From contig JAAVFV010000030.1 of assembly GCA_014800525.1 (NCBI GenBank), positions 1-64,000 of the forward strand: DNA of 64,000 nt, in the 5' to 3' direction. The position numbers and the translations under genes are program-made. This DNA comes from Bacteroidales bacterium. Lineage in GTDB: Bacteria > Bacteroidota > Bacteroidia > Bacteroidales > Muribaculaceae. Positions 8,183-62,412 of the stretch are shown piece by piece. The notes beneath the pieces were generated by a model. That model did no database searches, was not told the origin of the DNA, and saw only the letters and a list, made by a program, of their open reading frames with translations. Every line of letters starts with the position of its first letter. Positions within the stretch are counted from its first letter, which is position 1.

Positions 8183-10764
8183 TTTTTCTTGTTATTTCTT
8201 GTTGATTTTCCAGTCAGGCTTGATACTTCATAACCTAAGTGAACATTCTTAATCTTGAGCTCCGAACCCGTAGCCAATGCTTTATATTCATTGGTGGCAA
8301 TCTGATGTGTACGGTTTTCTCCGGTCGGTGTATTCACATCATCCAGTTCGCTGCCTGTTGGAATATGCACTTCCACAGGTTCTGCTGCCGATGACACGAA
8401 ACGTACATACAATTTTTTAGCCTTCTTGCCGAAAGGATATTGTGGGAGCTGAATCTCCTTCGATTCCCATTGACCGCTGACCGTGAGAGAATAAACGCCT
8501 GTTGTACTCAATTTTTCATCATTATCTCCATACACAGTCACCTCTACGGCCCCATGTTCTCCATTAATCGGATTTGCCAGATATTCAAATGAAATCGTAC
8601 TGGGACGGGAGGTGAAGGCTATTCCATTTTCACGGGTTTCCGTTCCGTTATAGATATATTTCCCGAGGAAGAGTTCGCCCGCAGCACGACTGGCAATATT
8701 TTCAGGTGCATTTCTCGAACATCTACTTATTACGGAGAGTCCATGGTTATCCTGTGGCGGCATCACTCCATTATGATCATAGGCCACACTTCTTAAGGTC
8801 ACCTCCCCGTTGGATGCCATTGTAGATGGAACCACAAACCATGTGTTCAATGTATTCGCATCTTCATAACATGTCTTTGCATTTACGGAACACCAGTCGG
8901 CAGGCTCGTTCACATATATGGAAGTATAATTTACATAGGCTTTATAAAGTCCATACTTCCAGGCCCCTCCGGTGTCGATATGACTGAAATTGATCGTGTT
9001 TACAAGATTCTGGAAGTCGCCGTTAGGAACATCCGCCTTTGCTTCCGTTGTAAACTCCGGCACATTCTTATCAAATCCCGTTACAGTGAATTTCAGATCT
9101 GAATAGGTGGTGGAGGGTGAAAGGCCGGTTACGATAAACATTCCACGCTCCGTATCATTCACAATTTCGCGCGTCAGGATATTTTCACCATTATACACCT
9201 TAGTATTGCTGATCACATAATCAATCACCTTCTGATCCGCGCTGTTGATTTTAATTTCCGCCTTTGTGGCGTAGGCATCAATATCAAGTGTATAGTCAGG
9301 CTCCGCCACCGGCACATTAACATCGAATGTCTTCGTACCTAACATGGCTCTGACATCGATTATCGGATTATTCAGTGGACTCACCTCAAGCACATATCTG
9401 ATGGCATAAGGAAGCTGGCTTCCCGCCGGAACCGAAATCACCTGCGATCTGATCACATCCGCCTGTACCATACGGTTGTTCTCATCAGGAGCTTCAAATG
9501 AAAGCTCATTTCTGATATCAATGCAGTCTGTATAGACGTCTACTGTGGCTTCTGTAGCTAAGAATGATGCCGTACGGGGTGCTTTAATCTCTACGGTCAC
9601 AGGTGTGATCTCCACTACAAACTGAATCTCATCGGAAAGTCGGGTCTGCGCATCCTTCACCTGAAGCGATATAGTGTGGCGTCCGACCGGAAGATTACCG
9701 ATAAAACCCTCAAGGTCGAGCACTGCCAATTTATCAGGATTGCGATAGAACCCATAGCATCCCAGACCGGACTCCTCAAGCTGCTGTTGCTGAAGCTCAC
9801 TGGCCTTCATGAGGTCGATACGCTCGCCAAACGCAGGCACATACTGAGCCGATGAGACAATATTTAGATTTGCAGAAGTCAACCCTCCAAGCGCAAATAC
9901 CGCGAATTTTGCCTCATTAGAATAGTGGGCGTATTCGAATGCCTTGTTCTCCTGACCTGAGGTAAATCCCTGAGGAGTCACTGTAGGTGCAGGCGAATTC
10001 CACAGCTGATCTCCTAACGATACATCCACAGTCTCAGAAACCACATTATCATCAAACTGCACATCGAGAGCCATATTCCCTTGAGCATCTGCATTGACAT
10101 TGAATGTCACTACATAATGATGACGTGGTTCGGCTGTGAATCCGGCCGGCTGAATTGTCACGGTCTTACCCTGACCGTTGGTGAGGGAAAGAGTTACATT
10201 CACCTCCGACGGTTTTATATACGCCGGACGCTCCTCCTCCTGAGAAAAGGTGACATACTGATGACCCGGGGTCTGCACAGCGCCATTATATGCTGTGAAA
10301 TAATTTTTGAATGCATCCGTATATCGGAACGATACCATCGAATTGGCCAATGTGGCAACCACAGCTACATCAGTCTTGGCGTTCGGCCCCACATGGACCT
10401 GATTCACACCATAATAATACGGGTGTTCGAAGCCTTCCTGTTCTATATCGCCGTATGAAGCCTCGATATCATAATCTCCGATTGGAAACTCATGCTCACT
10501 ATGAAAGTGATCGAGAGTATCCCATGTCTTGGAATAGCTGCCATCATTTTTGTGAAGTCCGATTCCGAATGTCGCCACATCCGGAACTATCGGAGACATT
10601 CCATCATCGGCCCGGGTCATATTCATCACCCTACCGTCTGTGGACAGGCTAAGCGATATACTTCCTTTCTCTCCGCTTAAACTTTCGATACCGTCATCGG
10701 ATGAACACGAAACCATGCAAGCCACCATTGCTCCGATGAGGAATCCGTTAGTTAGTTTATTCAT
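8179..10764 (-). CDS. DUF4493/PCMD-like lipoprotein, first gene of operon
   Basis: CMVSCSSDDG lipobox; FPIGDYDIEASYGDIEQEGFEHPYYYG (DUF4493-like); long Ig-like region. Confidence 0.7.
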   Translation of the reverse strand: MNKLTNGFLIGAMVACMVSCSSDDGIESLSGEKGSISLSLSTDGRVMNMTRADDGMSPIVPDVATFGIGLHKNDGSYSKTWDTLDHFHSEHEFPIGDYDIEASYGDIEQEGFEHPYYYGVNQVHVGPNAKTDVAVVATLANSMVSFRYTDAFKNYFTAYNGAVQTPGHQYVTFSQEEERPAYIKPSEVNVTLSLTNGQGKTVTIQPAGFTAEPRHHYVVTFNVNADAQGNMALDVQFDDNVVSETVDVSLGDQLWNSPAPTVTPQGFTSGQENKAFEYAHYSNEAKFAVFALGGLTSANLNIVSSAQYVPAFGERIDLMKASELQQQQLEESGLGCYGFYRNPDKLAVLDLEGFIGNLPVGRHTISLQVKDAQTRLSDEIQFVVEITPVTVEIKAPRTASFLATEATVDVYTDCIDIRNELSFEAPDENNRMVQADVIRSQVISVPAGSQLPYAIRYVLEVSPLNNPIIDVRAMLGTKTFDVNVPVAEPDYTLDIDAYATKAEIKINSADQKVIDYVISNTKVYNGENILTREIVNDTERGMFIVTGLSPSTTYSDLKFTVTGFDKNVPEFTTEAKADVPNGDFQNLVNTINFSHIDTGGAWKYGLYKAYVNYTSIYVNEPADWCSVNAKTCYEDANTLNTWFVVPSTMASNGEVTLRSVAYDHNGVMPPQDNHGLSVISRCSRNAPENIASRAAGELFLGKYIYNGTETRENGIAFTSRPSTISFEYLANPINGEHGAVEVTVYGDNDEKLSTTGVYSLTVSGQWESKEIQLPQYPFGKKAKKLYVRFVSSAAEPVEVHIPTGSELDDVNTPTGENRTHQIATNEYKALATGSELKIKNVHLGYEVSSLTGKSTRNNKKK

Positions 10765-10818
10765 ATGTTAGTCTATATATAGCGTCCCTCCGGTCCGCTG
10801 ATTTTATCTATGGAAATC

Positions 10819-10930
10819 ATAAGTAAGTATTCAAAATTAAACGATACCAAGTAATTAAATTATCTTTTATACTATCTACGGCCTCTTTTGACTCGTATAT
10901 AGTATAAATTAATTTTGAACACTTACTTAT
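10819..10930 (-). repeat. Element E1: short (112 bp) derivative of the TIR-bounded structured element family
   Basis: Left end ATAAGTAAGTATTCAAAATTAA, right end TTAATTTTGAACACTTACTTAT (21/22 complementary); reverse complement aligns with E2 but lacks its central ~75 bp. Confidence 0.85.
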
Positions 10931-11278
10931 TTCGGATCTTATGTGAGACAATCCGATTTATCGGCAACAAAATTAATCCTTTAATTTCTATTAACCAATT
11001 TTTTGACCCTTTTGACCAACATTTCCCCTTTTTGACCAATTTTAACCCTTCTTTTAGGTTATTTTTACTCTTTCCTCTCCCTTTTATTCCCTTAACACCC
11101 TATCCGGCTCGGTTCAACTTTTCCCTTTTTATTGCGTTAATAACTCAGATAGATTAATCCTTATCCTTATTTCTTTATCTATTTTTAATAGGTTCCTCGA
11201 TCTATTCTTGATAGATATGAGAGGTCCGGTTATTATACACCCGATTCGTTAATTATAAATATTGATCCTAAAATTCAA

Positions 11279-11965
11279 ATGAAAAAGAAATACGCAATCC
11301 TCCTGAGTGCCGCCCTCTTTTTAGGGGCTTCCTCAGTCCAGGCTCAATCGCTCTCCGATATCCTTTCTAAAATAGGAGCCGGCAAACAGACCAACGATTC
11401 TTCTTCCAATTCCGGCTCCAACTCCGGTATCGGCGGCACACTCGGTAATCTCATCGGTGGCGTGCTCTCCACTTCCAATCTCTCTGAAAAAGATCTTCAG
11501 GGTAAATGGGAATCCCAGGGCCCGGCTGTCGGTTTCAAATCCGACAACCTCCTTAAAAAGGCCGGAGGCGTGGCGGCAGCTGCTGCGATCGAGTCAAAAC
11601 TCGAACCCTACTATTCCCAGTTCGGCCTTAATGGTGCTACTCTTGAAGTGGACCAGAATAATAATTTCGTGCTTGCAATAAAGGGTATCAAACTTAAAGG
11701 TACCATCGCACGTAAGGAGGGTTCAGATAATGGTGTGTTCGAATTCAAATTCCAGGCCTTCGGGAAGGTCGGTCTCGGCAGCGTCACTACCTACGTTTCA
11801 AAATCCATCAATAGCCTTGATGTAATGTTCGATGCCACTTTCCTGATCAAAATTGTATCGGTGGTAGGCAAAGTTAGCGGCCAGTCATCAATCCAGGCCC
11901 TTACATCCCTCCTCACTTCATATGATGGCCTTAACGTAGGCTTCAAGATGGTGAGTCAGAAGTAA
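11279..11965 (+). CDS. DUF4923-family secreted protein
   Basis: 228 aa with signal peptide; LSEKDLQGKW...GPAVGFKSDNLLKKAGGVAAAAAIESKL resembles the Bacteroidales DUF4923 family. Confidence 0.65.
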   Translation: MKKKYAILLSAALFLGASSVQAQSLSDILSKIGAGKQTNDSSSNSGSNSGIGGTLGNLIGGVLSTSNLSEKDLQGKWESQGPAVGFKSDNLLKKAGGVAAAAAIESKLEPYYSQFGLNGATLEVDQNNNFVLAIKGIKLKGTIARKEGSDNGVFEFKFQAFGKVGLGSVTTYVSKSINSLDVMFDATFLIKIVSVVGKVSGQSSIQALTSLLTSYDGLNVGFKMVSQK

Positions 11966-11967
11966 TT

Positions 11968-12012
11968 CGTCAGCGCGAAGCTGTTTCCGTCCCGGCTCTG
12001 CCGGTTCTCCCC
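11968..12012 (+). repeat. REP-like repeat, subfamily B
   Basis: CAGCGCGAAGCTGTTTCCGTCCCGGCTCTGCCGGTTCTCCCC; mini-hairpin CCGGC-TCT-GCCGG. Confidence 0.75.
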
Positions 12013-12013
12013 A

Positions 12014-12059
12014 ATAGAAGCGCCTTCCATTCGGAATTCCGAATGGAAGGCGCTTCTAT
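12014..12059. terminator. Bidirectional terminator: 46-bp perfect palindrome between convergent genes
   Basis: ATAGAAGCGCCTTCCATTCGGAATTCCGAATGGAAGGCGCTTCTAT. Confidence 0.8.
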
Positions 12060-12080
12060 ATTTTCATATCTTGCCTACAA

Positions 12081-12683
12081 TTACACTGCCGCAATCCGGG
12101 CTATATACTTTCCCAGAATATCAAATTCCAGATTCACTTTCGTGCCTTTCTCAATGCGGCAGAAATTGGTGTGGTCGTGCGTATAAGGAATAATCGCCAC
12201 TTTAAAGCTATTATTTGTCGGCTCCACCACTGTCAGACTAACGCCATTCACTGTCACCGATCCCTTATCCACTGTAATATACCCACGCTTTGCCAATTCA
12301 GGAGCCACATCATATTCAAACGTATAATACCAGCTTCCATCTGCCTCTCGGACATCAGTACAGATTGCTGTGGTATCCACATGGCCCTGCACAATATGTC
12401 CGTCAAGCCGACCATCAATCTTCATGCTCCGTTCAAGATTCACAAGGTCTCCGGGCTTCAATCCGCCAAGATTTGAACGATCAAGGGTTTCCTTAATGGC
12501 TGTCACCGTGTATGTGCCATCCCCCGGTAGAGCCACCACAGTGAGACACACTCCGTTATGCGATACACTCTGATCAATATTCAATTCATCGGTAAAGGAA
12601 CTTTTCATCGTGATATGAAGATTCCCTTTATCCTCCAGGACAGCCACCACTTCGGCAGCTTCCTCAACAATTCCTGAAAACAT
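12081..12683 (-). CDS. ribE: Riboflavin synthase alpha subunit
   Basis: MFSGIVEE start, duplicated lumazine-binding domains, NGVCLTV / NGVSLTVV. Confidence 0.95.
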   Translation of the reverse strand: MFSGIVEEAAEVVAVLEDKGNLHITMKSSFTDELNIDQSVSHNGVCLTVVALPGDGTYTVTAIKETLDRSNLGGLKPGDLVNLERSMKIDGRLDGHIVQGHVDTTAICTDVREADGSWYYTFEYDVAPELAKRGYITVDKGSVTVNGVSLTVVEPTNNSFKVAIIPYTHDHTNFCRIEKGTKVNLEFDILGKYIARIAAV

Positions 12684-12755
12684 ATTCTTTGTTGCTATAT
12701 TTTATATTGCAAATATAAGAATTTTTGGGTAATTTTACCCAAAAGAATAACAACC

Positions 12756-14510
12756 ATGGCTCTCCAAACCCGAATTCCTCTTCCGGCCCGCTTGTCGGGA
12801 TCTGTTCCGATGTTGCCCCCGGGGTCGCGTCGTATCACGGTGATTGGAGGCAATGGCGTGGGTAAATCACGGTTCATGGAAGAGACGGCTCGTCTCACAG
12901 CCCCGGCTTCTTTTCGGCTCTCCGCCGTTTCAGGCATCTTCCCCTCGCGGGAGGAATCCACTATGACCGGCTCCATTGATGATCTGTACCGGCGGAATAT
13001 CTCAGCCAATGGTCATTTCAGACCGGAGGCCCTGAGCGAGCTTGACCGGCTTGAGGCTCTCCTTATGGCTGATGAACTGAAGGCTCTCCTTCGCTTCAAG
13101 GAATCCCTGGTGGATGCCCCGACTATAATTAATGGAGAGCATTCTTCCGAAATTTCTTTTCCCTCCCCTACACCCCTGGATCATCTTCGCAACATCTGGA
13201 AAGATATCTTTCCCGGCACGTCCATATCGGCGTTGAGCGGGGCGTTGAGGTTCCGACCCGCCGGTTCTGAGGATTTTATTCCTGTCGGCAGACTGAGTAG
13301 AGGAGAACAGGCGGCTCTATATTATTCCATCGCCATCCATTATGCGCCTGAGAATGGAGTCGTATTCATTGATGCCCCCACCCTCTTCCTCCACTATTCC
13401 GTCTATCAGAGGCTATGGCCTGCTTTGGAAGCCCTGCGCCCCGACTGCGTTTTCATATACAATGCCATAAATCCCGACTTTATCTCGCCCCGTCATGGAG
13501 AACCCCTCATATGGGTGAAAGGTTACGATGCCGACCAAAAAGCCTGGGATTATGAGTTGGTGGATTCTGCGGATATCTCCGATAATATACTCCGCGATAT
13601 CGCCGGAGCGCGCCGGCCGGTACTGTTCATTGAAGGTGACCGCGAGCATAGCATTGATGCCAGACTCTATGCCGCAGTTTTTCACAATTATACAGTCCGC
13701 CCCCTCGGTTCCTGCAATAAGGTGATCGAAGCCACACGGGCTTTTAATGATCTCAACGCCATACATCGCCTGAACGCAGCCGGAATTGTCGATCGCGACC
13801 GGCGTACAGACCAGGAGGTGAATTATCTCCGCCGGAAGAATATCATGGTGCCGGAAGTGGCCGAAATTGAGAATATGTTTCTCCACCCCGGGATTTTACG
13901 GGTAATGGCCCGTCTGCGCGGGCGTCAGGAAGAGAAGGTGATTCGGAAAGTGACAAAGACAATTCTTAATCTGTTTGCCGCCAATATTGATGCTCAGGCC
14001 CTTGAACATGTGCGCCATCGTATCAAACGGGAAGCGGAGATAAATATAGATTCCCGATTCTCCTGTATCACGGCCCTCGAAACCCATCTCAAGACCCTCC
14101 ATAACCGACTCCAGCCCCGGAAACAATATGAGGAACTCCGCAAGCAATTCCGCAGAATGGTATCTGAAAAGGATTATGAAGGAGTGCTCAGAGTATTCAA
14201 TCATAAGCCGATGCTTTCGGCTTCAAATATAGCTCCGATGCTCGGTTTCGGTTCGGTCGATGCATACATACACGCCGTACTCGAAATAATGGCTCGGGAA
14301 TCTCCGGAAAGCCGGGATCTCCGACAGGCCATAAGGTCAATTCTTCTTGTCACCGACCCCGATATTTCTTCCTTCGCTCCCGCTAACAAAGCCTCCCTCC
14401 CGGATGTTAAAAAGATAGCCCGTTATACCCCGGACAATCCTCAAAACAAGAATGTAGCTCAAGATAAAAACAAGAATATAACTCAAGATAAAATATGGAA
14501 AAACAATTAG
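12756..14510 (+). CDS. AAA/ABC-type ATPase with C-terminal DUF4435-like (Toprim-like) region
   Basis: Walker A GGNGVGKS, signature-like LSRGEQAALYYSIA, Walker B VVFIDAP, then RPVLFIEGDREHSIDARLY...IVDRDRR...VPEVAEIENMFLHPG. Confidence 0.7.
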   Translation: MALQTRIPLPARLSGSVPMLPPGSRRITVIGGNGVGKSRFMEETARLTAPASFRLSAVSGIFPSREESTMTGSIDDLYRRNISANGHFRPEALSELDRLEALLMADELKALLRFKESLVDAPTIINGEHSSEISFPSPTPLDHLRNIWKDIFPGTSISALSGALRFRPAGSEDFIPVGRLSRGEQAALYYSIAIHYAPENGVVFIDAPTLFLHYSVYQRLWPALEALRPDCVFIYNAINPDFISPRHGEPLIWVKGYDADQKAWDYELVDSADISDNILRDIAGARRPVLFIEGDREHSIDARLYAAVFHNYTVRPLGSCNKVIEATRAFNDLNAIHRLNAAGIVDRDRRTDQEVNYLRRKNIMVPEVAEIENMFLHPGILRVMARLRGRQEEKVIRKVTKTILNLFAANIDAQALEHVRHRIKREAEINIDSRFSCITALETHLKTLHNRLQPRKQYEELRKQFRRMVSEKDYEGVLRVFNHKPMLSASNIAPMLGFGSVDAYIHAVLEIMARESPESRDLRQAIRSILLVTDPDISSFAPANKASLPDVKKIARYTPDNPQNKNVAQDKNKNITQDKIWKNN

Positions 14511-16792
14511 GAATCCTTCGCGATGATCCATGGCTCGAGCCTTTCGCGGCAGCCATAGAGGGTCGTCATCAGGATGTGATCAGAAAAAAAGAGGAACTCA
14601 CCGCCAATACCCGCGGCTCTCTCAAGCGCTTTGCCAATGCCTACAATTGGTTTGGCCTTCACAAGGAGAAAGACAGCTGGGTATTCCGCGAATTTGCTCC
14701 TAATGCCACTGCCGTCTATCTCTTCGGTACGTTCAACGACTGGAACCCTCGTGATCCACACTACGCTCTCACACGCCTTGAAGACGGCTCCTGGGAGGGT
14801 CATTTCACTGAAGACGCCATCCATAACGGCGATCTCTTCAAAATGTTCGTGGAATGGAACGGCGGCGAGGGAGAACGCATCCCGGCCTATGCCCGTCGAG
14901 TGGTGCAGGATCCTAATACCCATATTTTCTCAGCCGAGGTATATGTTCCCGAACACCCATACGAATTCAAGATCACAAAGTTCACTCCCGATACCAAACC
15001 TCTTCTCATCTACGAATGCCATATCGGTATGGCACAGGATGAGGAAGGTGTAGGCACCTACGAGGAATTCCGTACCAAGACGCTGCCCCGTATCGCCGCC
15101 GACGGCTACAACGCCATTCAGATCATGGCAATCCAGGAACATCCCTATTACGGTTCGTTCGGCTACCATGTCAGCAGTTTCTATGCGGCTTCCTCGCGGT
15201 TCGGCACTCCCGACGATCTCAAGCGTCTCATTGACGATGCCCACGAACGCGGCATAGCCGTTATTATGGATATCGTGCATTCTCATGCCGTGAAGAATGA
15301 AGTGGAAGGTCTCGGACGTCTTGACGGCTCCTATGATCTCTATTTCTATGGTGATCATCGCCGCGAACATCCGGCATGGGATTCCCTTTGCTTCGATTAT
15401 GGCAAGAATTCAGTGCTCCATTTCCTTCTGTCCAACTGCAAGTTCTGGCTTGAGGAGTATAAATTCGATGGTTTCCGTTTCGATGGTGTGACCTCGATGC
15501 TCTATTACGATCATGGTCTCGGCAAGGCTTTCGGAGGGTATGATGATTATTACGACGGAGGGCAGGACACAAACGCCCTTGTATATCTTTCGCTGGCTAA
15601 TATTCTTATCCACGAAGTGAATCCCAAGGCCATCACCATCGCAGAGGAGATGAGCGGTATGCCCGGTCTGGCACTTAAGTTTGACGAAGGCGGCATCGGT
15701 TTTGATTACCGTATGGCTATGGGTATCCCCGACTATTGGATCAAGATGATTAAGGAGAAGAAGGATGAGGATTGGCATCCGACCTCCATATTCTGGGAAC
15801 TCACCAATCGTCGCGCTGACGAGAAGACAATATCTTACTGCGAAAGCCACGACCAGGCCCTCGTGGGAGATAAGACCATCATCTTCCGTCTGATAGATAA
15901 AGAGATGTACTGGCATATGATGGTCGACGACCATAATTTTACTGTCGACCGCGGTATGGCCCTCCACAAGATGATCCGGCTCGTGACTCTTGCCACAATC
16001 AATGGCGGATATCTTAACTTCATGGGCAATGAGTTCGGTCATCCCGAATGGATCGATTTTCCTCGCGAAGGAAACAGCTGGAGCTATAAGTATGCCCGTC
16101 GCCAGTGGGATCTTGTCGACCGTCAGGATCTTAAGTATCGCTTCCTGAATGCCTTCGATAATGCTATGGTCGAAGTGGTTTCCGGAAAATACAATTTCCA
16201 GTCGCTTCCCGTAGAGAAGCTTTGGGAGAAAGATGATGATCAGGTGTTGGCATTCATGCGTGGCGACCTTGTATTTGTCTTCAACTGGAGTCCGAATAAA
16301 TCATTCACTGATTATGGCTTCCTGGCTCCCGCCGGAGAATATGAGGTGGTGCTCGATTCCGATAATCCGGAGTTCGGAGGATATGGAAATATTGATGATT
16401 CCGTGAATCATTTCACTTCTCCCGATCCTCTTTACTCTCCGGCCGGTAAGGGTTGGCTGAAACTTTATCTCCCTGCCCGCACTGCCATGATTCTCAGAAA
16501 GGTCAAGGCTGCCCCTAAGCGTGCGGCGAAGAAGAGCGCCGCAGCCCAAGAGGCACCGGAAGTAGTGGTAACGGTCACCGCAGATGCGGAGGTGAAGGCT
16601 CCGGCCAAGAAAACCACTGCGAAAAAGACCACAACCAAGAAGACGCCCGCAAAGGAGACTGCTGAGAAAAAACCGACTGCGAAGAAATCCACAGCCAAGA
16701 AAACAACAGCCACAAAATCTGCTGCTAAGACCTCTGCAAAGAAGACAACCACAAAGAAGACGGCTTCCAAAAAGTCTGATTCTGTGGAGTAA
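14495..16792 (+). CDS. glgB: 1,4-alpha-glucan branching enzyme with Lys/Ala/Thr-rich C-terminal tail
   Basis: FGTFNDWN (CBM48), GFRFDGVTSMLYYDHG, EEMSGMPG, YCESHDQALVGDK, FMGNEFGHPEW; overlaps upstream CDS by 16 bp. Confidence 0.95.
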   Translation: MEKQLGILRDDPWLEPFAAAIEGRHQDVIRKKEELTANTRGSLKRFANAYNWFGLHKEKDSWVFREFAPNATAVYLFGTFNDWNPRDPHYALTRLEDGSWEGHFTEDAIHNGDLFKMFVEWNGGEGERIPAYARRVVQDPNTHIFSAEVYVPEHPYEFKITKFTPDTKPLLIYECHIGMAQDEEGVGTYEEFRTKTLPRIAADGYNAIQIMAIQEHPYYGSFGYHVSSFYAASSRFGTPDDLKRLIDDAHERGIAVIMDIVHSHAVKNEVEGLGRLDGSYDLYFYGDHRREHPAWDSLCFDYGKNSVLHFLLSNCKFWLEEYKFDGFRFDGVTSMLYYDHGLGKAFGGYDDYYDGGQDTNALVYLSLANILIHEVNPKAITIAEEMSGMPGLALKFDEGGIGFDYRMAMGIPDYWIKMIKEKKDEDWHPTSIFWELTNRRADEKTISYCESHDQALVGDKTIIFRLIDKEMYWHMMVDDHNFTVDRGMALHKMIRLVTLATINGGYLNFMGNEFGHPEWIDFPREGNSWSYKYARRQWDLVDRQDLKYRFLNAFDNAMVEVVSGKYNFQSLPVEKLWEKDDDQVLAFMRGDLVFVFNWSPNKSFTDYGFLAPAGEYEVVLDSDNPEFGGYGNIDDSVNHFTSPDPLYSPAGKGWLKLYLPARTAMILRKVKAAPKRAAKKSAAAQEAPEVVVTVTADAEVKAPAKKTTAKKTTTKKTPAKETAEKKPTAKKSTAKKTTATKSAAKTSAKKTTTKKTASKKSDSVE

Positions 16793-16812
16793 TACCGTAT
16801 AATCCATACACC

Positions 16813-16844
16813 CGACCCGGCGGAATCTTCGTTTCGCCGGGTCG
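16813..16844 (+). terminator. Hairpin downstream of glgB
   Basis: CGACCCGGCG-gaatcttcgttt-CGCCGGGTCG. Confidence 0.6.
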
Positions 16845-16913
16845 ACTATGAATCATAATCAGATATTGAGTCCGATTCATAGACACTTGATAATCCAAAT
16901 TGATTTTCGAATT

Positions 16914-17606
16914 ATGAATTCCAATCCCATCATCATAGCCGTAGATGGTTATTCATCTTCCGGCAAATCCACTATGGCACGAGATCTGGCCGCCCGCATC
17001 GGATATATCTATGTCGATTCCGGTGCTATGTATCGTGCTGTTACTCTATATGCCCTACGCCACGGGATGGCCACTCCTGAGGGAAATCTCGATGCGGAAG
17101 CTCTCAATGCCGCTCTCCCCGATATCTCCATCTCCTTCTCTCCGGCCGGAGCCGACGGGCGTCAGCATACTCTCCTCAATGGGGAGGACGTGGAAAAGGA
17201 AATCCGCTCCATGGAAGTAAGCGGTATGGTCAGCCCTGTAGCGGCCCTTCCTGAGGTACGCCACCGTCTTACAGAGCTCCAGCGCGAGTTCGGTCGGCGG
17301 CGTGGAATCGTGATGGACGGCCGCGACATCGGCACCACTGTCTTTCCCGATGCCGAGATGAAAGTCTTTGTCAATGCCTCTCCGGAAGTCAGGGCCAAAA
17401 GAAGAGTGCTCGAACTCCGGGCTAAGGGTGAGAATGTGAATTTCGAGGAGGTTTTGGATAATATCCGCGAACGCGACCATATCGATACCACCCGTAAGGA
17501 ATCCCCTCTCGTGCAGGCTGCCGATGCCCATGTGCTCGATAACGACTCCATGACAATCCCTCAGCAGATGGATTGGCTCCTGAATCTTTATAATTCAATT
17601 AAGTAA
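16914..17606 (+). CDS. cmk: Cytidylate kinase
   Basis: IIIAVDGYSSSGKSTMARDLA, MDGRDIGTTVFPDA; likely start is the internal Met at 16914 (ORF opens at 16848). Confidence 0.93.
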   Translation: MNSNPIIIAVDGYSSSGKSTMARDLAARIGYIYVDSGAMYRAVTLYALRHGMATPEGNLDAEALNAALPDISISFSPAGADGRQHTLLNGEDVEKEIRSMEVSGMVSPVAALPEVRHRLTELQREFGRRRGIVMDGRDIGTTVFPDAEMKVFVNASPEVRAKRRVLELRAKGENVNFEEVLDNIRERDHIDTTRKESPLVQAADAHVLDNDSMTIPQQMDWLLNLYNSIK

Positions 17607-17787
17607 GTGTTCAAAATTAATTTATACTATATACGAGCTTATTTTGGAGGCGATTGGGGCGCAGAACGAAGGAGAATACTTTCGTATTCGACTGAGTGAT
17701 AAGCCACAAGCGGCCCAAAAGAAGCCGTAGATAGTATAAAAGATAATGCTCTTACTTGATATCGTTTAATTTTGAATACTTACTTAT
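17599..17787 (+). repeat. Element E2: TIR-bounded structured intergenic element (~187 bp)
   Basis: AAGTAAGTGTTCAAAATTAA...TTAATTTTGAATACTTACTTAT; second inverted repeat TTTATACTATATACGAGCTTATTTTGG / CCCAAAAGAAGCCGTAGATAGTATAAA; hairpin GAATAC-TTTC-GTATTC at 17674-17689. Confidence 0.9.
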
Positions 17788-17795
17788 AGCAACAA

Positions 17796-18710
17796 ATGAC
17801 CCACGCCTCTAATAGGAATCAGGTAGTGGAAATCGATGAGAATTCCGGTTTCTGCTTCGGTGTGGTCACCGCCATTGAAAAAGCCGAGGCCGAGCTCGGC
17901 CGAAGCGGTGAGTTACACTGCCTTGGAGATATTGTCCATAATGCTTCGGAAGTGGAACGCCTCCGCCTCCGGGGCCTGAATACAATCACTCATTCCGACC
18001 TCGAAAACCTGCATGACGCCACAGTGCTCCTTCGGGCTCATGGCGAACCCCCATCCACATATGAGACAGCACGCCGGAATAACATCTCTATAGTGGATGC
18101 CACCTGTCCTGTCGTACTTCAGCTCCAGAAGCGAATCAAACGTGCCTATGATGAAGGACGCCTCCGGATGGAATCAGGCCAAGCTTCGCGAATGCCCCTG
18201 ATTCTGATTTATGGTAAAGAGGGACACGCCGAGGTTAACGGGCTTGTAGGGCAGACTGATGGCACGGCGATCGTGGTCCAATCTCCTGAGGATCTCGATG
18301 GTCTGGACCTTGACGGGGACGTGCTGCTCTATTCGCAGACCACTCAATCACTCGATGGATTCCATCGTATGATTGAAGCCATACGGCAACGTAAGAAGAC
18401 CGGGGAATTCGAATATTCCGACACAATCTGCCGACAGGTGGCAAACCGCCTTGAAGGTCTCCGCAATTTTGCCGCAGGTCATGATGCAGTGGTTTTCGTA
18501 AGCGGTGCGAAAAGTTCAAACGGTAAGGTGCTCTTCGAGGAATGCCGGAAAGTGAATCCGCGCACATATCTTGTCAGCGATGTCAAGGATCTCGATCTTG
18601 ACGCGCTCACCGATGTCGCCTCGATCGGAATATGCGGAGCCACCTCCACTCCACGCTGGCTCATGACCCGCATTGCGGATATAATCCGTGATAAAAAAGA
18701 TAATGGATAG
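17796..18710 (+). CDS. ispH: 4-hydroxy-3-methylbut-2-enyl diphosphate reductase
   Basis: NSGFCFGVVTAIEKAE, HGEPP, DATCPVV, GKEGHAEVNGL, SGAKSSN. Confidence 0.95.
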   Translation: MTHASNRNQVVEIDENSGFCFGVVTAIEKAEAELGRSGELHCLGDIVHNASEVERLRLRGLNTITHSDLENLHDATVLLRAHGEPPSTYETARRNNISIVDATCPVVLQLQKRIKRAYDEGRLRMESGQASRMPLILIYGKEGHAEVNGLVGQTDGTAIVVQSPEDLDGLDLDGDVLLYSQTTQSLDGFHRMIEAIRQRKKTGEFEYSDTICRQVANRLEGLRNFAAGHDAVVFVSGAKSSNGKVLFEECRKVNPRTYLVSDVKDLDLDALTDVASIGICGATSTPRWLMTRIADIIRDKKDNG

Positions 18711-18718
18711 AACTGATA

Positions 18719-19186
18719 ATGGATAGAATTGATAAAATCGAAGCTCTCGACCGCCGCTTCATGGAAGCGGCTCTCGAAGAGGCTAAAATTGCCGCCGATA
18801 AGGGGGAGGTCCCTATCGGAGCGGTAATCACACTTAATGGCCGGATTATAGCCCGCGGCCATAATCTCACAGAGATTCTTCACGATGTGACGGCACACGC
18901 CGAAATGATAGCCATCACATCGGCCAGCGAACATCTCGGCGGAAAATATCTTCCCGACTGCACTCTTTATGTCACTGTAGAGCCATGTGCAATGTGTGCC
19001 GGAGCCATAGGATGGAGCCAGATGGGACGCCTTGTCTATGGTGCTTCCGACCAAAAGCGCGGTTGCTTCTCTTTCTTCACTCCAATGCGCTCTCCCCTGC
19101 ATCCCAAGACAATCGTAAAATCCGGTGTCCTCGAGGAGGAATGCAGGAGAATCATGCAAGATTTTTTCAGAAAACTCCGGCGGTGA
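18719..19186 (+). CDS. tadA: tRNA-specific adenosine deaminase
   Basis: DVTAHAEMIAI and TVEPCAMCAGAI zinc motifs, GEVPIGAV. Confidence 0.94.
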   Translation: MDRIDKIEALDRRFMEAALEEAKIAADKGEVPIGAVITLNGRIIARGHNLTEILHDVTAHAEMIAITSASEHLGGKYLPDCTLYVTVEPCAMCAGAIGWSQMGRLVYGASDQKRGCFSFFTPMRSPLHPKTIVKSGVLEEECRRIMQDFFRKLRR

Positions 19187-19218
19187 CAAAAGTTTTTTGT
19201 AATTTTGTGGAAACTATT

Positions 19219-19410
19219 GAAGTTATCTAAACTTATTTTTTATTAACAATTGCGAGAGATTTTTGAGCTGATTTAGTCACTCGAAGAGGTAGCAACCTTT
19301 CGGTTGGTACCGATGAGAGGGGCGAAAGCAGCCAAAAAGATCCGCAAGGGTTAATAAAAGAATGTATGAGTAGCTTCGTTTAACATTCGTAAATAAGTTT
19401 AGACAACTTC
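19219..19410 (+). repeat. Element E4: TIR-bounded structured intergenic element (192 bp)
   Basis: GAAGTTATCTAAACTTATTT...AAATAAGTTTAGACAACTTC (19/20); second IR TTTTATTAACaaTTGCG / CGCaagGGTTAATAAAA; hairpin GGTAGCAACC-TTTC-GGTTGGTACC at 19288-19311. Confidence 0.85.
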
Positions 19411-19492
19411 ATAAGGAGGAGCTCCTGCAAAGTCGATCGGGAATAATGCTCTCCCTCCAATCTATCTATCTTTCTTTTCTAACTGACACATC

Positions 19493-20446
19493 ATGAATGC
19501 TTCTGACAAAATTAAGGGCGCATTATATGGTTTAGCGCTCGGCGATGCCCTGGGAATCGGCACTGAATTTATGACCGTAGATGAAATCCATAACTATTAC
19601 CCCGATGGTCTGACTGATTTCACCCAGTTTATCCGCGATGCTCACCGGGCCACTTTCCAGAAAGGGTCCTGGTCTGCTAATACCGAGGTTGTGCTCCGTC
19701 TGATCGAGACTATTGCCAATCATAAGGATATCCGCCTTAAGGACGTGGCCCATACTTTACGTGAATGGTACCTCGAATCCCCCGAAGATGTCATGCCCGT
19801 TTATCGCGCAGTAATCGGGAATCCTCGCTGGGAAGATAATCCGATCACCGAATGTCATAGCACATGGCGCGAACGCAACATCACAGAGGCCACCAACGAA
19901 GCCATCCATCGCGCTCTGATAATAGCTGTGATTTCAGAGTCTGATACCGACATACACCGCTGGTGTCATCGTCTTGTCAGCCTCACACATGATGACATCC
20001 GCTGTATGGCCTCCACTGCCGTTATCGCAAAATGGCTCCATTCCGTGATTATCGAAGGAAAGGAAGCTTCTCGTGAGGATCTTGAGCAATTTTGCCGCCA
20101 GATCGACTCCCGTACCCTGATATATATCAAGGCTGCGGGCGACGGAGACCTCTCCAATCTTCACCTCGATGATGAAGACACCTACTGGTACACCCGGAAG
20201 AGCATGGCTTCCGCTCTATGGGCCATCTGGCATCTCGATTCCCCGGAGGCTATTCTTCGCGAAATTGTTCATGCAGGTGGGGATGCTAACACTAACGCCT
20301 CTCTGGCCGTGATGTGTGCCGGTGCCAAATATGGCTATGATGCCCTTCCTCCTCTTAAAGATAAGATTCTTAATCGCGATCGCCTCGACAAAGCGATCGA
20401 CCAACTTATTTCCATCCGTGGCTATGGAAAGAGCCATAATATGTAA
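19493..20446 (+). CDS. ADP-ribosylglycohydrolase (DraG-like) family protein, altered metal motifs
   Basis: GALYGLALGDALGIGTEF; GSWSANTEV where GxWTDDT is usual; HAGGDANTNASLAVMCAGAKYG where GGDTDTNA is usual. Confidence 0.85.
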   Translation: MNASDKIKGALYGLALGDALGIGTEFMTVDEIHNYYPDGLTDFTQFIRDAHRATFQKGSWSANTEVVLRLIETIANHKDIRLKDVAHTLREWYLESPEDVMPVYRAVIGNPRWEDNPITECHSTWRERNITEATNEAIHRALIIAVISESDTDIHRWCHRLVSLTHDDIRCMASTAVIAKWLHSVIIEGKEASREDLEQFCRQIDSRTLIYIKAAGDGDLSNLHLDDEDTYWYTRKSMASALWAIWHLDSPEAILREIVHAGGDANTNASLAVMCAGAKYGYDALPPLKDKILNRDRLDKAIDQLISIRGYGKSHNM

Positions 20447-20684
20447 GTAGTTACTAAAAATTAATGAACACATAAAACGCAGTTATTTTGGTGCAGATTT
20501 TGCCGCAGAAGGAAGGAGCATACTTTCGTATGCGACTGACTGATAAGGTAAAAGATGCCCCAATTGAAAATCGACGAGTTTCCTTTTTAAAGAAAACAAT
20601 GACGAGTCAAATAACAAGTTTTATGGTTCAAGATATTCCAACTACTTGAGATACATATATCGTTTAATTTTCAGTAACTACTTA
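20444..20684 (+). repeat. Element E3: TIR-bounded structured intergenic element (241 bp)
   Basis: TAAGTAGTTACTAAAAATTAA...TTAATTTTCAGTAACTACTTA (20/21); second IR CATAAAACgcagTTATTT / AAATAACaaGTTTTATG; hairpin GCATAC-TTTC-GTATGC at 20518-20533. Confidence 0.9.
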
Positions 20685-20688
20685 AGAT

Positions 20689-21567
20689 ATGAATCCATGG
20701 ATTGAAGCCCTTAGGCTTCGCACTCTTCCGGTGTCCGCAGCCGGCGTCCTCACAGGCGCCGGTTGTGCGGCCTATATCGGGGGCTTCCGCTGGCTCCCGT
20801 TCTGCCTCTGTCTCCTCTTTGCGCTCTTGGCTCAGATCGTATCCAATCTCGCCAATGAATACTTCGATTTTAAGAATGGACTCGACCGCAAAGGGCGCGA
20901 AGGGTTCCGACGTGGAGTCGCTGAAGGAGATATCTCAGCTTCCGCAATGTTACGCGCTGTGATCCTCACCCTCATCCTCGCCTGCATCGTCGGATGCTGT
21001 CTGATATTCTGGGGTGGATGGTGGTTGATGCTCATCGGGCTTGCTGTAGCCGTTTTCGCACTCGCATATTCCGCCGGCCCTTATCCCCTCTCTCACCATG
21101 GCCTCGGTGATATTGCCGTCCTTATATTCTTCGGAATCATTCCGGTGTGTCTTACATCATGGCTATCCTCCGGCTCAACCGACCTTCTATGGCAACTCAC
21201 ATTTCCTCTTTCCGTCGCCATCGGCCTGATGGGTGTAAATGTGCTCATCGTAAATAATTATCGCGACATTGACGAGGACCGGGCTGTGAATAAACGCACC
21301 ACTGCTGTAATTTTCGGACCCTCGGCAATCCGCACCCTTTATTTCATCAATGGCATCATAGCCATCGGCATTATTATCTGGGTCACTATCGGCCGGGCAT
21401 CCCTGATTTGGCAAGCCGGATCCCTTCTCTACGCCAATATTCATTTCATTCTTTGGACAAAGATAAAATATTCATTGGGCTCACAGCTCAATCCCATCCT
21501 CGGAAAGACCGCGATGCTCCTCTTCGGTGTCTCACTCTGGCTCCTCCTCCTTCTATCCCTCAATTGA
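20689..21567 (+). CDS. menA: 1,4-dihydroxy-2-naphthoate polyprenyltransferase
   Basis: UbiA-family: RTLPVSAAGVLTGAG, NLANEYFDFKNGLD, NNYRDIDEDRAVNKRT. Confidence 0.92.
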   Translation: MNPWIEALRLRTLPVSAAGVLTGAGCAAYIGGFRWLPFCLCLLFALLAQIVSNLANEYFDFKNGLDRKGREGFRRGVAEGDISASAMLRAVILTLILACIVGCCLIFWGGWWLMLIGLAVAVFALAYSAGPYPLSHHGLGDIAVLIFFGIIPVCLTSWLSSGSTDLLWQLTFPLSVAIGLMGVNVLIVNNYRDIDEDRAVNKRTTAVIFGPSAIRTLYFINGIIAIGIIIWVTIGRASLIWQAGSLLYANIHFILWTKIKYSLGSQLNPILGKTAMLLFGVSLWLLLLLSLN

Positions 21568-21610
21568 TCCTCCTCATCCTCTCTCCCTCTCCCCCTCTTC
21601 GCCTTCTCCC

Positions 21611-21719
21611 GTCGGCGCGAAGCCGTTTCCGCCCCGACTCTGTCGGTTCTCCCCGGTCCTCTCCCGCCCTCTTCCGTCGGCGCGAAGCCGTTTCCGTCCC
21701 GACTCTGTCGGTCCTCCCC
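21611..21719 (+). repeat. Two REP-like repeats, subfamily B (21611-21654, 21675-21719)
   Basis: GTCGGCGCGAAGCCGTTTCCG(C/T)CCCGACTCTGTCGGTTCTCCCC twice. Confidence 0.85.
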
Positions 21720-21785
21720 AAATTAGCCTCTCCCCAAATTAGCCTCTCCCAAGATCAGCCTTCAGGCCTTCCAAAAATTAAGAAT

Positions 21786-23387
21786 ATGCCAGCAGCAAAG
21801 AAACCATATAATCAGCCCATCCTTCAGGATACAAGCGGCAAAATGCAGCCCAATGACATCGAGCTCGAAGAAGTGGTGCTCGGCGCCCTTATGCTTGAGA
21901 AGGATGCATACATGAATGTCAGCGATATCCTGACTCCCGATGCATTCTATGATCCCAAGCATCAGAAAATATATGAGGCCATAAGCTCCCTTGGTTTCAA
22001 TCAGCGTCCAATCGATATGCGCACCGTCACCGAACAGCTTCGCCATAACGGAACTCTCGCCGAAATCGGTGGAGCGGTCCGCATCGCCGAACTCACCGGA
22101 AAGGTGTTCTCGGCCGCAAATGTCGAATTCCATGCCAAGATCATAGCCCAAAAATATCTCGCGCGCCGACTCATAACCTTCGCATCCAAAATAGAGACAG
22201 ATGCGTTCGATGAGACCAATGATGTCGACGATCTCCTCCAGGCTGCTGAAGGCCAGCTCTTCGAGATATCCCAGATGCACCTGAAGAGGGAGGTTACGCA
22301 GATTGACCCCGTCCTCAACCTCGCCCTCGAGCAAATCCAGGCCGCTGCCAATAGCCAGACCGGTCTCTCAGGCCTTCGCACAGGTTATACCGACCTCGAC
22401 CGCATGACCTCCGGTTGGCAGCCTTCCGATCTCATCATCATCGCCGCGCGTCCGGCCATGGGTAAGACCGCTTTCGTGCTATCCATGGCCAAGAATATGG
22501 CAATTGATTACAACACCCCCATCGCTATCTTCACACTTGAGATGGCTAACGTTCAGCTTGTGAAACGTCTTATCTCCAATGTAGCCGATCTTAATGGTGA
22601 GCAAATCAAGAGCGGTAAACTTACACCCGATGAGGAAGACCGCCTCAATTCACGTCTTAGAAGCGTCTACGGCGCTCCTCTATATCTCGATGAGACTCCC
22701 GGTCTCTCCATCACCGAACTGCGCACCAAAGCACGTCGCCTTGTGCGTGAACGTGGTGTAAAGATGATTATGATCGATTACCTTCAGCTTATGACCGCCT
22801 CCGGTATGAAACTCGGTTCACGTGAGCAGGAGGTCTCCACAATCTCACGCTCGCTCAAAGGTCTGGCCAAGGAACTCAACATTCCCATCATCGCCCTCTC
22901 ACAGCTTAACCGAAGCACTGAAACACGCGAGGATAAGCGCCCCGTCCTATCCGACCTCCGCGAATCAGGAGCAATCGAGCAGGATGCGGATATAGTCTGC
23001 TTTATACATCGCCCCGAATATTATACTAAGAGCACCGAAGATGCCCAGGGGAACGATATCCGTGGATTGGCCGAACTAATCGTGGCCAAACATCGTAGCG
23101 GTGCCGTGGGAGACGTCAAGCTACGCTTCGTATCTAAATTCGCCCGATTCGAAAACTGGGATGAGGGCTTTAACAGCGTTCAGAGTGTGGTCTCTCTCGG
23201 AGATACGATGAGAGTGCAGAGTCCAAGCAATTCAAATGGAGGGAATTTCAGCCAGCCCTCCGATTCAGCCGATATGAATGGAGCCTTATCATTCAGAGAA
23301 TCTGTGCAAGGTATGGGTCTGCATGATCCATTCGGCAGCGATATCGATCTCAGCCCCGGCCCCAATGAACTTCAGGTTCCCTTCTAA
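21786..23387 (+). CDS. dnaB: Replicative DNA helicase
   Basis: LEEVVLGALMLEKDAY, IIIAARPAMGKTAF, MIMIDYLQLM, ALSQLNRSTE; start set at 21786 because the upstream part of ORF 21408 overlaps menA and translates the repeats. Confidence 0.95.
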   Translation: MPAAKKPYNQPILQDTSGKMQPNDIELEEVVLGALMLEKDAYMNVSDILTPDAFYDPKHQKIYEAISSLGFNQRPIDMRTVTEQLRHNGTLAEIGGAVRIAELTGKVFSAANVEFHAKIIAQKYLARRLITFASKIETDAFDETNDVDDLLQAAEGQLFEISQMHLKREVTQIDPVLNLALEQIQAAANSQTGLSGLRTGYTDLDRMTSGWQPSDLIIIAARPAMGKTAFVLSMAKNMAIDYNTPIAIFTLEMANVQLVKRLISNVADLNGEQIKSGKLTPDEEDRLNSRLRSVYGAPLYLDETPGLSITELRTKARRLVRERGVKMIMIDYLQLMTASGMKLGSREQEVSTISRSLKGLAKELNIPIIALSQLNRSTETREDKRPVLSDLRESGAIEQDADIVCFIHRPEYYTKSTEDAQGNDIRGLAELIVAKHRSGAVGDVKLRFVSKFARFENWDEGFNSVQSVVSLGDTMRVQSPSNSNGGNFSQPSDSADMNGALSFRESVQGMGLHDPFGSDIDLSPGPNELQVPF

Positions 23388-26950: not shown

Positions 26951-26996
26951 ATTTGTTTTTATCCCAGCCTTTATTCGCTCTCCCTGCTCTAATTCC

Positions 26997-27230
26997 TCAG
27001 CGCGAAGCTCGTTCTGTGCAAGCCCCGAAGGGGATTGAAGCAGCCATTGCTCCCGTCAGCGCGAAGCTCGTTCTGTGCAAGCCCCGAAGGGGATTGAAGC
27101 AGCAAAGTCCCCGTCAGCGCGAAGCTCGTTCTGTGCAAGCCCTGAAAGGGATTGAAGCAGCCATTGCTCCCGTCAGCGCGAAGCTCGTTCTGTGCAAGCC
27201 CCGAAGGGGATTGAAGCAGCTAATGCCTCC
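26997..27230 (+). repeat. Four-copy tandem array of REP-like subfamily A (58-59 bp period)
   Basis: TCAGCGCGAAGCTCGTTCTGTGCAAGCC(CC/CT)GAA(G/A)GGGATTGAAGCAG four times, with 11-12 bp linkers. Confidence 0.92.
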
Positions 27231-28373: not shown

Positions 28374-28429
28374 AAAAAATTCCTCCCAAAAAATTCCTCC
28401 CAAAGAAATCCTCCCAAAGAAATCCTCCC
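28374..28429. repeat. 4 x 14-bp tandem repeat upstream of the GH3 gene
   Basis: AAAAAATTCCTCCC x2 then AAAGAAATCCTCCC x2. Confidence 0.9.
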
Positions 28430-28430
28430 C

Positions 28431-28479
28431 CGCCGGCGCGAAGCTCGTTATGTGCAAGCCCTGAAAGGGATTGAAGCAG
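28431..28479 (+). repeat. REP-like repeat, subfamily A
   Basis: CGCCGGCGCGAAGCTCGTTATGTGCAAGCCCTGAAAGGGATTGAAGCAG. Confidence 0.9.
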
Positions 28480-31715: not shown

Positions 31716-31751
31716 ATTTTTATATATAATTTATTTTCCAATAAATAAAAT

Positions 31752-31915
31752 CCGGCGCGAAGCGGTTGCCGTCCCGACTCTGTCGGTTCTCCCCCATCGG
31801 CGCGAAGCTCGTTCTGTGCAAGCCCTGAAAGGGATTGAAGCAGAATGATATTGCCTTTCACCGCCCCATCGGCGCGAAGCTCGTTCTGTGCAAGCCCTGA
31901 AAGGGATTGAGGCGA
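31752..31915 (+). repeat. Three REP-like repeats: B (31752-31794), A (31795-31843), A (31866-31915)
   Basis: CGGCGCGAAGCGGTTGCCGTCCCGACTCTGTCGG; CGGCGCGAAGCTCGTTCTGTGCAAGCCCTGAAAGGGATTGA twice. Confidence 0.9.
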
Positions 31916-50436: not shown

Positions 50437-50535
50437 TTTTTATTAATCGTAACAAATAAAATTTTAATAAATCTAAGTTTTATTAATCGTAACAAATAAA
50501 ATTTGAATAAATCTAAGTTTTATTAATCATAATAA
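50437..50535. repeat. ~2.5 copies of a 40-bp AT-rich tandem repeat upstream of the DUF4143 ATPase
   Basis: TTTTATTAATCGTAACAAATAAAATTTTAATAAATCTAAG, register marked by TATTAATC at 50441, 50481, 50521. Confidence 0.9.
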
Positions 50536-50595
50536 ATTATTGCTGTCCAATAAAATTTTTTATCATTCTAAAAAATTTTATCGGACAGCAATAAT
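50536..50595 (-). terminator. Long hairpin terminator of the fumarase gene
   Basis: ATTATTGCTGTCCaATAAAATTTTTTA...TAAAAAATTTTATcGGACAGCAATAAT. Confidence 0.85.
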
Positions 50596-62373: not shown

Positions 62374-62412
62374 GAGTCGCGAAGCTTGTTTCCGTCCCGA
62401 CTCTGTCGGTTA
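62374..62412 (+). repeat. REP-like repeat, subfamily B (divergent 5' end)
   Basis: GAGTCGCGAAGCTTGTTTCCGTCCCGACTCTGTCGGTT. Confidence 0.8.

Follow-up and report, generated by a model that had tools for sequence, protein, structure and literature searches.

The four palindromic elements E1–E4 of the window (by which we mean the whole 64,000-nt stretch of Muribaculaceae DNA analysed here) are best read as MITEs moved by IS5-family transposases, with E1 a deletion derivative and with a central hairpin selected for the propagation of the element itself; we put the probability of this joint reading at roughly 0.8. E1–E4 would then be non-autonomous palindromic DNA transposons whose TIRs are recognised by IS5-family transposases, which move them in trans. 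The part worth following is the covarying, polar hairpin shared across IS5-type MITE families, together with its resemblance to ERIC.

E2 is a full-length family-I MITE of 187 bp (17600–17786, + strand) that supplies the TAA stop of cmk (17604–17606) and ends 9 nt 5' of the ispH ATG. Its apical hairpin (17662–17703, + strand) is marked by covariation, by a strand-specific fold, and by a score of 98.6 bits against R1, a covariance model of the centre built from family I only. The stem pairs 17674–17679 with 17684–17689, and tandem G.A pairs lie at 17672–17673/17690–17691, 17668–17669/17694–17695, and 17664–17665/17698–17699. E3, a family-I MITE of subfamily B (241 bp; 20444–20684, + strand), also gives its upstream gene a TAA stop and ends 4 nt 5' of the menA ATG. 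Nested within it is a ~47-bp module (TTGAAAATCGACGAG...GACGAGTCAA; 20564–20610, + strand) that recurs in L009–L011, L014, and L026 and in the family-II copies L297, L298/L306, and L307. In MITE families whose ends differ, this module, with its two GACGAGT repeats, occupies equivalent sites (L009–L011, L014, L026, L297, L307, and the window at 20564–20610). E4 (19219–19410, + strand) is a family-II MITE of 192 bp with the TIR GAAGTTRTCTAAACTTATTT and an inner hairpin (19253–19350, + strand) homologous to that of family I. E1 (10820–10929, − strand) is a centre-deleted family-I MITE of 110 bp, without the apical hairpin, and has the TIR pair TAAGTAAGTATTCAAAATTAA / TAAGTAAGTGTTCAAAATTAA. The family-I terminal pattern has six matches in the window, namely the two ends each of E1, E2, and E3, versus 0.18 expected in shuffled sequence.

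Copies of both families are short (~60–250 bp), multi-copy, and free of transposase coding sequence. The genome from which the window comes (2.19 Mb, 76% complete) contains 149 TIR matches, compared to 11 for a reversed control pattern. Family I, which comprises an E1/E2-type and an E3-type subfamily, accounts for ~70 palindrome copies in this genome, and family II (E4 type) for ~25–30 copies (48 BLAST matches). Every copy classified by gene context is intergenic, and none is inside a gene. At the orthologous cmk–ispH site, the element is absent and the junction short in at least 12 relatives of the same genus. Related elements are common in MAGs named Muribaculaceae (a family of mouse-gut bacteria) or Bacteroidales, and in this family they run to dozens of copies per genome. 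R1 matches 172 of 297 Muribaculaceae genomes, in 20 of 30 genera, and has only one match among ~395–396 other Bacteroidota genomes. A search of plasmids, phages, and viral contigs found no copies. Three phylum-wide pattern matches outside the window's own genome resemble coding sequence and were set aside. A MAG labelled Paenibacillus (JAMPHR; L154, L179, L250) has typical Muribaculaceae elements, and its label is probably wrong. The part of the literature covered yielded no paper joining Muribaculaceae with MITEs.

Terminal sequence gives good support for E4 as an IS5-type MITE. A 959-bp IS in the relatives G010 and G026 has the ends GAAGTTGTTTAAACTTATTT and GAAGTTGTTTAAACTAATTT and encodes a transposase with DUF4096 and DDE domains (NCBIfam IS5); in L356/L362/L363, the IS ends agree with E4-type ends at 20/20 and 19/20 nt. 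Target-site duplications of 3 bp are seen in 12 of 26 family-II cases, versus 3.8 expected. In family I (151 copies), the duplication is at most TA, which stands at both ends with nothing longer and is deduced as a duplication from these fixed ends. An all-against-all comparison of the fetched loci for exact empty sites found none.

We infer that E1–E3 (family I) are probably IS5-type MITEs as well. The IS nearest to family I is of IS5 type (L350 in G017), with ends 17/21 like family I, and a MITE of the same genome with intermediate ends (L047; TAAGTGACTGTTCAAAATTAA) bridges the two. An in-frame TGA interrupts the G017 transposase (L350, position 2110), so this copy is probably inactive. An intact IS bearing exactly the family-I TIR was looked for and not found, and the window's own genome, at 76% completeness, gave no DUF4096 match; short-read assemblies lose repeated ISs. 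One candidate autonomous element there, a 1780-bp TIR-flanked segment of contig C69, encodes a MATE transporter and no transposase, and solo ends in relatives were either half copies or the ends of contigs. G412, a genome from a different family of the Bacteroidales, carries ~20 nearly identical 194-bp elements (L316–L334); an IS5-type IS lies ~50 bp from one of them and has the first 16 nt of the TIR in common with it. These are probably recently active MITEs with a related tandem-G.A hairpin. The G412 TIR has 10 matches in viral contigs, and no transposase adjoins the one inspected.

The apical hairpin would be under strong constraint. In 66 distinct cores, three tandem G.A pairs alternate with Watson-Crick pairs in which both partners vary (CG/GC/TA, GC/AT). 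The tandem 5'-GA-3'/3'-AG-5' mismatches are nearly invariant (65 and 64, 66 and 66, and 61 and 62 of 66); because some G.A positions were preset in the pattern by which many of the copies were retrieved, invariance at those positions is partly a product of selection by the pattern, and covariation of the other pairs is unaffected. Over 34 diverse copies, pairing holds in 94.1% of cells, and covariation is 0.481, as against 0.166 in shuffled and at most 0.10 in slid controls. Folded as RNA, E2 is 9 sd better than its shuffles. Of the two DNA strands of the centre, the G.A strand folds far more stably (−21.1 kcal/mol, z −6.1) than its complement (−11.8 kcal/mol, z −1.8). Selection in intact copies would seem to act strongly on the hairpin, as one folded strand whose polarity is fixed.

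R1 also matches elements well beyond the E1/E2 type. It scores E3 at 81.4 bits (20479–20576), E4 at 38.5 bits (E = 2.6e-7), a third family, whose ends are GAAACTGTTTAAATTT, at 39.6–46.6 bits, a G412 element at 37 bits, and an element with unrelated ends from a Saprospiraceae MAG at 36.4 bits (E = 5e-7). Because these matches fall in families with different ends, one folded centre is common to different MITE families. The Saprospiraceae element (L180, 4900–4997), of which one copy was seen, has the same core and the ends GGGCACTTCTAAATACTCC. The hairpin is absent from the parental ISs. The usual view is that a MITE needs nothing but its ends, and conservation of a central hairpin where the ends differ runs against it; since families with different ends keep both the invariant non-canonical and the covarying canonical pairs of the hairpin, the centre has a job.

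One candidate job is regulation of neighbouring genes, with the element acting as a cis-acting RNA in the leader of the downstream gene and sense copies kept because the hairpin regulates. The structure covaries and has one functional strand, as such a role would have it, and start codons follow E2 and E3 after just 9 and 4 nt. All four window elements are also sense to the downstream gene, as the initial annotation had pointed out, but this shared orientation does not extend genome-wide. Among codirectional gene pairs at Muribaculaceae loci, 30 copies are sense and 30 antisense; in the window's own genome, the sense to antisense counts are 12–13 to 7 for family I and 6 to 5 for the E4 type. 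A bias was looked for twice in these orientations and none was found, and the agreement within the window is chance. By the criterion that the initial annotation itself set, this refutes the idea that the shared orientation is meaningful. Random orientation weakens the case for cis-regulation, the neighbouring genes are unrelated to one another, and an Rfam search of 10000–22000, which spans E1–E4, returned no credible match. We therefore consider a cis-acting leader RNA unlikely. Because the structured strand is not preferentially the sense strand (30:30), as action in cis on an mRNA would require, we infer that the hairpin works for the element's own propagation, in the form of single-stranded DNA or of an element RNA. 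The constraint would then serve replication or mobility of the element, and not regulation of adjacent genes. This job can be tested in cultured Muribaculaceae, given the polarity of the hairpin, the random orientation of the copies, and the IS5 element that was matched.

It is even harder to see the elements as outward promoters working through the Bacteroidota −7 box TAnnTTTG, which faces outward in the family-I TIR. A −7-like TAATTTTG does face outward in every family-I inverted repeat, every family-I TIR includes TTAATTTTGAA, and E1 has the entire TTTG-N19-TAATTTTG (10887–10917), which agrees in full with the Bacteroidota promoter consensus. However, a −33 box at the right spacing is seen in E1 only, where the deletion junction made it; this junction box faces right, to the gene at 11279 and not to the lipoprotein operon, and there is no placement bias across copies.

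A REP/RAYT arrangement, in which a Y1 (HUH) transposase would recognise the hairpin as single-stranded DNA, seems to us just as improbable as the promoter reading. In having conserved mismatches and one fixed functional strand, the hairpin resembles REP substrates, and REP/RAYT and REPIN systems likewise consist of dispersed intergenic repeats with an imperfect hairpin that is conserved. Here, by contrast, the length of the TIRs and the presence of target duplications indicate a DDE enzyme, and no Y1_Tnp domain (PF01797) was found in the copy-rich carriers G000, G001, G004, G007, or G011, of which G007 is 99% complete.

As to how E1 arose, the initial annotation took it for an internally deleted E2, the product of recent copying or gene conversion. 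Its account of the two sequences is borne out: the outer arms of E2 (17600–17786) match the reverse complement of E1 over 72 nt at 92% and 41 nt at 98%, and E1 is without centre and hairpin. Descent from E2, on the other hand, fails. The ~70 family-I copies found genome-wide include a closer relative, the 233-bp sister copy L010 on contig C44, which is identical to E1 at 108/110 positions, compared with 103/110 for E2. In E2 orientation, the left 38 nt of E1 are matched 38/38 by both, and the right 72 nt at only 65/72 by E2 and at 70/72 by L010. Written in element orientation, E1 is TAAGTAAGTG...TATATACGAG|TCAAAAGAGGCCGTAG...TACTTACTTA. Sequence comparison with L010 places the deletion junction at CTCGT (10892–10896), which is ACGAG in element orientation. 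The junction sequence ACGAG|TCAAAAG recurs at the end of the nested module in L010/L011 (GACGAG|TCAAAAG) and not in E2. Immediately before its match to the right part of E1, L010 reads ...AATGACGAG, which is the end of the ~47-bp module; in the same comparison, the left part ends in TATACGAG. In the parent type, ACGAG forms a 5-bp direct repeat at the two ends of the deleted segment.

Since the junction lies at the end of a module absent from E2 and ACGAG is found at both sides, comparison of the copies identifies E1 as a ~123-bp deletion between the ACGAG repeats of a module-bearing sister copy, not of E2. Either slippage or recombination between the two repeats took the ~123 bp, hairpin included, out of such a 233-bp sister, which would make E1 a dead end. 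E1 itself is an ordinary deletion derivative, and because the genome carries ~70 family-I copies plus a second family, the closeness of E2, 6.7 kb away, is incidental. What holds of the claim of copying is mobility or recent copying as such, as the elements are multi-copy, TIR-bounded, and intergenic and the cmk–ispH site is empty in relatives; copying or conversion between E1 and E2 themselves is unsupported, since another copy is closer and the junction requires a module that E2 does not have. That gene conversion across 6.7 kb homogenised E1 and E2 is scarcely credible for all the high identity of their outer arms, given that the unlinked copies L010, L003, and L009 are all closer to E1 than E2 is and that the junction stems from that module.

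Other repeats were seen along the way. In the window, a family with the sequence CAGCGCGAAGCTCGTTCTGTGCAAGCCCYGAARGGGATTGAAGCAG, partly tandem at 58–59 bp, occurs at 26978–27219, 28414–28479, and 31778–31915, and the repeat GCGCGAAGCCGTTTCCGYCCCGACTCTGTCGGTT lies near gene ends at 11958–12012, 21600–21719, 31740–31794, and 62387–62411. At 50438–50595, a tandem 40-nt repeat precedes a near-perfect inverted repeat of 27 bp (ATTATTGCTGTCCAATAAAATTTTTTA). A further repeat family of the same genome (L373, L378, L383, L384, and L385, on contigs C3, C6, C10, C16, and C18) has the apex AGGAGCATAGCGGGCTATGTGACTGA in a GACTCAG/CTGAGTC stem with one tandem G.A only, and is closer to the ERIC apex than E1–E4 are.

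Among known systems, the IS5-type MITEs of P. gingivalis (BrickBuilt, MITE239, MITE464/PgRS, and MITE700) are the nearest members, as far as the accessible part of their description goes (PMC4596501). They too belong to the Bacteroidales and are multi-copy and mostly intergenic, share TIRs with IS5-family ISs, and include MITE-in-MITE nesting and deletion derivatives. They differ in TIR sequences and interiors, and no cross-family apical hairpin is seen in that part of the description. RUP of Streptococcus pneumoniae and Correia/NEMIS of Neisseria are alike in TA termini, length (~100–190 bp), TIRs, and long stem-loop transcripts, but their sequences are unrelated and the accessible portion of the source (PMC2229807) does not describe a conserved tandem-G.A apex.

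ERIC/IRU/RU-1 of Enterobacterales and Vibrionaceae is, like the elements here, a palindromic intergenic repeat with TA at its ends (PMC2229807, PMC10969869). In a post hoc comparison, we found the apex of the Muribaculaceae hairpin, AGGAG-stem-YGACTG, at the apex of six of nine ERIC copies (Enterobacterales), with tandem G.A at the base. A Citrobacter copy reads AGGAGCATAG-ATAA-CTATGTGACTG, compared with AGGAGCATAG-CGAG-CTATGTGACTG in Muribaculaceae, and the motif turns up a single time in ~15 Mb of shuffled sequence, while 171 kb of unrelated sequence has none. Against R1, ERIC scores 16.4 bits (E = 0.15 in 34 kb) and at best 18.8, short of significance, where the window background is 16–18 bits. 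ERIC differs in its ends, in length (127 bp versus 187 bp), in phylum, and in a CCCC/GGGG stem after the first tandem G.A; neither its terminal sequences nor its ~127-bp length was matched in the families of E1–E4, whose host is a member of the Muribaculaceae and not of the Enterobacterales or Vibrionaceae. The shared apex suggests a link between ERIC and the apical hairpin but falls short of proving one; we describe an architecture like that of ERIC and do not claim membership. To our knowledge, the ERIC transposase has never been identified, nor its mode of movement found. It is conceivable, though we hold it only tentatively, that the apical hairpin is one ancient module of several Muribaculaceae MITE families, the Saprospiraceae element, and ERIC. 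If so, single-stranded tandem-G.A hairpins would be a common requirement of such mobile palindromes and IS5-type transposases would be candidate mobilisers of ERIC. Were the ERIC apex the same module, the 30-year-old question of how ERIC moves and of its conserved centre would gain both a candidate enzyme class and a structural determinant.
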